From contig NZ_GG697169.2 in NCBI RefSeq assembly GCF_000161835.1, positions 1,110,418 through 1,174,417 of the forward strand: a stretch of DNA of 64,000 nt. Direction: 5' to 3'. This DNA comes from Thalassobium sp. R2A62 (GTDB taxonomy: Bacteria; Pseudomonadota; Alphaproteobacteria; Rhodobacterales; Rhodobacteraceae). The position numbers and the translations under genes were made by a program. Under the pieces are notes generated by a model. That model did no database searches. It was not told the origin of the DNA and saw only the letters and a program-made list of their open reading frames with translations. This document shows, piece by piece, positions 54,636 to 56,643 of the stretch (its first letter is position 1; every line of letters begins with the position of its first letter).

Positions 54636-55103
54636 TCAGGCGGCCCTGAACACGAGGCTCACACCATTCAAACAGTGCCGCTGACCCGTTGGCGCAGGTC
54701 CGTCGCTAAAGATGTGGCCCAAATGGCTGCCGCAGCGCCGGCAATGGCATTCGGTCCGCACAGAAAACAACTTGCGGTCTTCCATCGTTCTGATCGCATT
54801 TCGGCGCGCGCGGAAAAAGCTGGGCCAGCCTGTTTTGCTGTCGTATTTGGTGTCGCTATTATAGAGCGCCAAATCACAGCCGCGGCAGTGGTAGACGCCA
54901 TCGGAATAGTTTTTGTCCAATGGCGAAGAACCAGCGCGCTCGGTCGCCTGGAGCCGCATCACGCGGTACTGGAGATCGGTCAACATCGCGCGCCATTCTG
55001 CATCGGTGCGCGTCACTTCAAAATTGCCTTCAGCGGCCGCAATAGCGAGACTGGGCATGGCCGTGCTGGCAAGAGCGGCGATGACAAAAGTTCTGCGGTC
55101 CAT
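54636..55103 (-). CDS. msrB: Exported peptide-methionine (R)-S-oxide reductase
   Basis: A 155-residue MsrB with an N-terminal export signal (MDRRTFVIAALASTAMPSLAIA) that ends near residue 25, so it works in the periplasm. Zinc ligands are in CRGC and CRRC, and the catalytic Cys is in HCLNGVSL; a middle Cys is absent, so reduction would rely on another thiol. It repairs oxidised methionine in envelope proteins. ATG 55103 has GGAG seven bases upstream; an upstream ATG at 55115 overlaps that site. Confidence 0.92.
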   Translation of the reverse strand: MDRRTFVIAALASTAMPSLAIAAAEGNFEVTRTDAEWRAMLTDLQYRVMRLQATERAGSSPLDKNYSDGVYHCRGCDLALYNSDTKYDSKTGWPSFFRARRNAIRTMEDRKLFSVRTECHCRRCGSHLGHIFSDGPAPTGQRHCLNGVSLVFRAA

Positions 55104-55115
55104 CGAGATCTCCAT

Positions 55116-55409: not shown

Positions 55410-56111
55410 TTAGAGAGACGAAATCACACCAATGCCCAAGACATCGCCGGTTGGACCACCCGTCGTCGAGCCGCCCAACGGCTCGTTACTAATGGCAAGG
55501 GTCGCGCCATTGATCACGTCCGAGGCGCCAGCAGGCAGCATCAAGACCGTTCTGATCTCATTCCCAACCAGCCCCAAAGAAACCGGTGCTGCGTCGCCTA
55601 CGATCAACCACAGCTCCCAACTGCGTCCGGGTTCGACGAAACCCGCGGCCCGATCGATAAGCAGTTGACCGCTATCAGGATCATACGCGGCTTGGACAAA
55701 CAGGGCCTGATCCTGCGCACCGATTTGCGCAAATAGATCGTTGTCCGCAGGATGTTGATTAGCAGAGTTCACAAACCACAACATACCGACGCCAAAGAGG
55801 CCTGCGGCCAACGCACCGCCCAATGCCTCGAACAGGCGCAGGTGTCTCCACCATGTTTGGGATTGCTCCAAGAACAAGCGACCCATGATTGCGGAAAACG
55901 TCCCAGCTGGCGGTTCGATCTCTGGCACCGGATCAGCAAGGACAGCCAAGAGTTCAGACCAAGCCGTGACCTCGTCGCGCAAATCAGGGTCACGTGCCAA
56001 ACGGGTTTCGAATGCGGTGATTTCAGCGGCGGACATCAGACCCATCACATATTCTGCGGCGTGAACTGTGTCAGCCGCATCGCCACCTTTATGATCAACG
56101 TCGTCCGTCAT
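55410..56111 (-). CDS. RskA-like anti-sigma factor
   Basis: A 233-residue membrane protein. The N-terminal cytoplasmic domain (HAAEYVMGLMSAAEITAFETRLARDPDLRDEV) resembles the sigma-binding helices of RskA-type anti-sigma factors, one span follows (FEALGGALAAGLFGVGMLWFV, about residues 98-118), and the C-terminal RskA_C-like domain is periplasmic (SWELWLIVGDAAPVSLG and the GGSTTGGPTG end). ATG 56111 overlaps the stop of the sigma gene (ATGA), confirming both ends; the longer frame to 56156 is not used. Its partner sigma is broken, so the protein may now have no target. Confidence 0.87.
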   Translation of the reverse strand: MTDDVDHKGGDAADTVHAAEYVMGLMSAAEITAFETRLARDPDLRDEVTAWSELLAVLADPVPEIEPPAGTFSAIMGRLFLEQSQTWWRHLRLFEALGGALAAGLFGVGMLWFVNSANQHPADNDLFAQIGAQDQALFVQAAYDPDSGQLLIDRAAGFVEPGRSWELWLIVGDAAPVSLGLVGNEIRTVLMLPAGASDVINGATLAISNEPLGGSTTGGPTGDVLGIGVISSL

Positions 56112-56643
56112 CGCGACAAACACTCTCTTAGCGATAGCAAACTGCGGCGCAACCACGTTCGCATCGTGTTCAATGGCACGTCAAAATGTGAAGCGAGGTC
56201 TTTGTACGTGTCCCCTTCGAGATACGCACGGCGGTCGCGCGGTCCGGCTTTAGCTCGTCCAGACCACGGTCGATCTGCGCCCGCTCAGAACCCGCAATTG
56301 CCAATGCTTCGGGGCTTGGGGCTGCATCTGGTAGCTCGACGATCTGTTCCATCGTCGCCGCGTTCATTCGCCGCGCGCGCAAACGGTCAACTGAATGGTT
56401 TCGCGCAATTGTAATCAACCATGACGTGGGGCTCAGACCATTCGATTTGTAATTGCCAGCGGCGCGCCAAACTTTGACGTAGATTTTTTGCAAAGCGTCT
56501 TCGGCTTCCGCCCGATCATTCAAAACACGAAGCGAGACGCCAAAGAGTTTCGCCGAAGTTGCAGAATAAAGTTTGGCAAACGCATCTCGGTCACCCAACG
56601 CCATACGCCCGATCCAATGTTCTATGTCATCGCGCGAGGTCAT
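56108..56643 (-). pseudogene. ECF sigma factor gene broken in region 4
   Basis: Region 2 is intact: LYSATSAKLFGVSLRVLNDR and EDALQKIYVKVWRAAGNY, then SWLITIARNHSVDRLRARR. In the open frame the protein goes wrong after ELKPDRATAV (56222-56229) and ends soon after at a stop near 56170. In the next frame region 4 continues normally: AYLEGDTYKDLASHFDVPLNTMRTWLRRSLLSLRECLSR, to TGA at 56108, which overlaps the anti-sigma ATG as expected. The frame would be restored by 7 extra bases (180 residues), as if CGTGGCG had been lost between short CG repeats. Without region 4.2 the factor cannot read -35 elements. Confidence 0.85.

Follow-up and report, generated by a model that had tools for sequence, protein, structure and literature searches.

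A likely recent loss-of-function frameshift in a SigK-like sigma factor gene beside a complete RskA-like anti-sigma gene in Thalassobium sp. R2A62

The window analysed here, a 64,000-nucleotide stretch of the Thalassobium sp. R2A62 genome (a single 3.49 Mb contig, 99.99% complete), contains an ECF sigma factor gene that an earlier note described as broken, adjoining an anti-sigma gene that remains complete. This raises the questions of whether the lesion is genuine and of how much regulation the organism would have lost by it.

Reading frame of the sigma gene and state of its partner

The sigma gene lies on the minus strand (56643-56108), with its ATG at 56643. Its native frame is read to approximately residue 139 (56227-56643, minus strand; region 2 and linker), after which translation runs out of frame through RISKGTRTKTSLHILTCH, an 18-residue nonsense tail (56170-56226, minus strand), to a premature TGA at 56172-56170. 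The sigma-4 sequence, YLEGDTYKDLASHFDVPLNTMRTWLRRSLLSLRECLSR, survives in another frame (56108-56224, minus strand) and ends at the native TGA (56110-56108), so that the DNA-reading region 4.2 is indeed displaced as the earlier note described. Frame is lost at ~56223-56230, inside GCCGTGCGTATC (56222-56230, minus strand), where comparison with relatives of ~180 aa gives a net loss of 7 nt (two codons plus one base), matching the deletion that had been placed at 56222-56229. Region 2 is intact in the native frame, as claimed (Sigma70_r2, PF04542, E=1.3e-15; TIGR02937 sigma70-ECF model, 56.7 bits, cut-off 42.9), and residues 1-139 match PRK12514, an RNA polymerase sigma factor, with E=3.2e-51; Sigma-70 region 4 is not in the same polypeptide.

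A protein consisting of sigma-2 and linker would not recognise the -35 element, which should go unread because sigma-4 is missing, and hence would direct no transcription. Since region 2 is kept, contact of the product with core polymerase and with the anti-sigma factor may persist; in known complexes the anti-sigma factor contacts both sigma-2 and sigma-4 (PMC7406223). The possibility of a two-part sigma with a separate sigma-4 subunit was rejected, the sole start in that frame being an internal GTG at 56179 that would give 23 aa. No second copy of the sigma gene was found in the genome, and takeover by another sigma was likewise discounted, the other three genomic ECFs (a ChrR-linked RpoE and two unrelated factors) offering no obvious candidate.

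The adjoining RskA-like anti-sigma gene (55410-56111, minus strand) is complete at 233 aa, carries RskA_C (PF10099, E=8.5e-14, above cut-off) and shows ordinary conservation relative to its relatives. Its ATG (56111-56109) overlaps the native sigma TGA as ATGA, the arrangement reported previously. Ribosomes now stop ~59 nt before this ATG, and translational coupling is therefore probably lost; anti-sigma translation is probably reduced accordingly, and "intact" holds for its sequence. The RskA-like protein would be left without a working partner.

Relationship to SigK/RskA pairs and conservation in relatives

By sequence, the pair is SigK/RskA-like (ECF19-like). The best solved relative of the sigma is Mycobacterium tuberculosis SigK (PDB 4nqw, 2.6e-17), and the SigK model NF007228 matches with 3.3e-27, under its cut-off (95 vs 226 bits); together with RskA_C in the partner, which the M. 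tuberculosis anti-sigma factor also contains, these matches agree with the earlier designation as an ECF/RskA pair. The two conserved cysteines of M. tuberculosis SigK are also found in relatives of the present sigma, which itself differs from the mycobacterial protein in lacking both an in-frame sigma-4 and Cys127. The lesion also differs from those of M. bovis and M. orygis, in which RskA is mutated and SigK activity raised, whereas here it is the sigma that is broken. In the same bacterial family, the Rhodobacter capsulatus "RpoE-ChrR" pair has been described as SigK-RskA-like and as more distant from R. sphaeroides RpoE/ChrR than from the SigK/RskA of M. tuberculosis (PMC7074977); unlike the present pair, that of R. 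capsulatus is apparently working and is reported beside the photosynthetic gene cluster (PMC7074977).

Homologues were gathered by similarity to sigma residues 1-139 only, so that an intact sigma-4 was not a criterion for inclusion. The comparison with ECF/RskA pairs of relatives that the earlier note had proposed returned intact copies throughout: all 109 homologous loci, some of which share a genome, are open through sigma-4, and relatives show AVR-xx-YL at the position of the break. The lesion is thus not a matter of chance, and the gene, with sigma-4 out of frame where 109/109 relatives have it, is a broken descendant and not a working member. The genus is represented by the present genome alone; a cobS tree places an assembly labelled Flavimaricola nearest to it, 0.42 substitutions per site away and weakly supported.

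SigK/RskA-like pairs (loci L005-L113), often beside cobS, are widespread in Rhodobacteraceae, and with a match at 1e-20 in 120 of the 298 genomes searched family-wide their distribution is patchy. Open frames shorter than 179 aa in that family-wide list comprise the present one (167 aa) and those of G085 (166 aa) and G022 (109 aa; here the match starts at the edge of a contig). Six further genomes suspected of carrying broken copies (G149, G039, G075, G212, G281 and G072) all proved open through sigma-4. In G085 (L146, G085:C60:2500-6000) the related sigma gene has unrelated sequence in place of sigma-4 from its very beginning, and no RskA was found within 3.5 kb; this loss is independent of the break described here and differs from it in kind.

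Conservation counts, based on 79 distinct full-length sequences, identify a second lesion that is absent from the earlier note. Codon 127 (56263-56265, minus strand) is GGT, encoding Gly, where all 79 relatives have Cys; the residue, positioned by count, aligns with Cys133 of SigK in 4nqw. The equivalent of Cys183 (in RECLSR) lies in the lost frame, and neither of the two redox cysteines conserved in relatives is therefore kept in the frame that is read. In M. tuberculosis SigK the disulfide between Cys133 and Cys183 influences the binding of RskA; substitution of both cysteines leaves SigK minimally active in mycobacteria, and a comparable outcome is described for a Yersinia pair (PMC7509140). 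The Nocardia SigK is naturally cysteine-less yet active (PMC7509140), so C127G alone need not inactivate.

A predicted promoter upstream of msrB

Downstream of rskA lies an intact msrB (54636-55115, minus strand; SelR 5.9e-43, MsrB equivalog 1.6e-42) with an apparent signal peptide, as judged by eye, and all 49 conserved columns unaltered; elsewhere the genome encodes a second MsrB. Among the relatives cobS occurs in at least 81 and msrB in at least 55 of the 109 loci, many of which are truncated, and by Pfam check a fasciclin gene is near the pair in 43 of the 76 loci with enough downstream DNA. MPT70 and MPT83 are fasciclin-domain proteins. Both are SigK targets in mycobacteria (PMC7509140), a likeness to the many Rhodobacteraceae in which fasciclin adjoins the pair; unlike the mycobacterial case, the local (predicted) target here is msrB, at a locus without fasciclin. 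A fasciclin remnant between rskA and msrB was sought and not found. The sole fasciclin gene of this genome lies elsewhere (G000:C1:1308267; L114:1399-1914), lacks the motif described below as judged by eye, and may be a different paralogue.

The motif GAAAC-N16-18-CGT, mostly in the form TGAAACT-N16-CGTG, precedes fasciclin in 55/55 loci, against a shuffled mean of 0.4 and none on the reverse strand. As it was discovered and counted in the same set, the independent controls are the upstream regions of the sigma genes, where it occurs at 2 of 83 loci, and the 16 loci without fasciclin, 7 of which have it again ahead of msrB. The former count also led us to reject autoregulation of the sigma. 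Dyads (GCAAC/CATAT...) that are enriched upstream of the sigma genes in relatives may belong to cobS. Across loci L034-L113, the predicted SigK-type promoter TGAAACT-N16/17-CGTG is found at all 55 fasciclin loci, in Rhodobacteraceae and some Rhizobiales, and in the literature searched we found no description of it.

The search for an ECF promoter motif upstream of target genes, which had also been suggested, was productive: the window contains one exact copy of TGAAACT-N16-CGT, between rskA and msrB (55356-55331, minus strand), and this is the predicted target promoter. Its -10 element is CGTT, a variant present in 1 of the 55 relatives. The genome's other exact TGAAACT-N16-CGTK site, antisense within a CpaF-like gene, was dismissed as chance, and relaxed genome-wide scans gave no excess over the reversed control. 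With the motif placed before fasciclin or msrB, present once here and in no genome-wide excess, the predicted loss is of inducible control over one or very few genes, and the regulon in this organism is predicted to comprise little or nothing besides msrB. The earlier statement that the whole regulon would be lost accordingly goes too far, given one motif copy before an intact msrB and a second MsrB elsewhere. That this sigma transcribes msrB is itself a prediction. In its terms the enzyme, a secreted methionine sulfoxide reductase that should be switched on under oxidative stress for protein repair in the periplasm, would no longer be induced from the TGAAACT-N16-CGTT promoter, and msrB would then be expressed from other promoters only. 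There is a precedent in kind in BcrS-AbcS of Brucella melitensis (ECF16; PMC8315932), an ECF/anti-sigma pair that adjoins and activates a methionine sulfoxide repair operon, although that pair is intact, belongs to another ECF group, uses the promoter (T/C)GTAAC-N17-CGAA and controls an MsrPQ-type system rather than MsrB.

Origin of the break and its significance

Frame is broken within the codons that specify A-V-R-R/G-A-Y (AVRRAY encoded). At the homologous site 34 of the 109 relatives have a pair of neighbouring 7-mers that differ at two positions at most, against a background frequency of such pairs of 1.7% of positions across these genes. Slippage is thus a likely cause, as replication slippage between adjacent 7-mers would delete exactly 7 nt; this origin is read from the repeats of relatives. 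All 21 strongly conserved columns of sigma-4 are unchanged though no longer translated, indicating that the frameshift is young; as a rough estimate, fewer than ~0.06 neutral substitutions per site have occurred since (~47 nonsynonymous sites). In the N-terminal part 3 of 41 conserved columns are changed, inside the range of intact genes, and as a whole this part is, by this count, not decayed relative to intact relatives.

The absence of any decay in sigma-4 would equally be expected under continued selection, that is, if the wild gene were intact and the 7-nt deletion existed only in the assembly or in the sequenced clone, through an error of sequencing or assembly or a change during laboratory passage. 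That a single genome represents both species and genus leaves room for such an artefact, which we regard as the main rival, albeit an unlikely one: a 7-nt deletion is no homopolymer error, the genome is contiguous and near-complete, the neighbouring genes are open, and C127G, a separate change at an invariant cysteine, suggests a factor that was already altered. The near-tandem 7-mers of many relatives could also suggest a contingency locus, at which repeat slippage toggles the sigma reversibly on and off within the population. We consider this very improbable, given that one repeat unit is left here, making re-expansion slow, that two-copy 7-mers are weak slippage sites, that the off state occurs at none of the 109 loci of relatives, and that C127G would persist.

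Some full-length sigma might still arise by ribosomal frameshifting, such as slipping by -1 at the GGGG run of TCGAAGGGGAC; the shift needed is -1, re-pairing of a GGG codon one base back is possible, and the sigma-4 remnant is fully conserved. Nevertheless, the site has no known slippery heptamer, relatives are simply in frame and so have no conserved signal, and the product would lack two residues and Cys127 and begin sigma-4 with altered residues, which makes this the least probable of the explanations weighed. Hardly more credible is a new role for the shortened sigma-2 protein in place of promoter reading, in which it stays bound by the RskA-like factor and acts as a decoy or a stress-released competitor for the RNA polymerase core. 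By far the most likely reading is a recent loss-of-function mutation of a SigK/RskA-type (ECF19-like) sigma, with loss of msrB stress induction and of no large regulon. The frameshift, which the earlier note correctly recognised as breaking the gene, is thus probably real, recent and inactivating, in an otherwise conserved pair, and an event of a common kind.

The locus would then show a pair that senses stress at an early stage of its decay, the sigma having been lost first, with its inhibitor, the target and the promoter all still recognisable. Of greater use than the lesion is what its analysis yielded as a by-product, namely the predicted promoter TGAAACT-N16/17-CGTG and the gene order cobS-sigK-rskA-(fasciclin)-msrB across Rhodobacteraceae, which make the regulon of a poorly studied alphaproteobacterial group directly testable. 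The SigK-like pair of R. capsulatus has been suggested to come possibly from Gram-positives (PMC7074977), and the occurrence of such pairs beside cobS across the family bears on that proposal.
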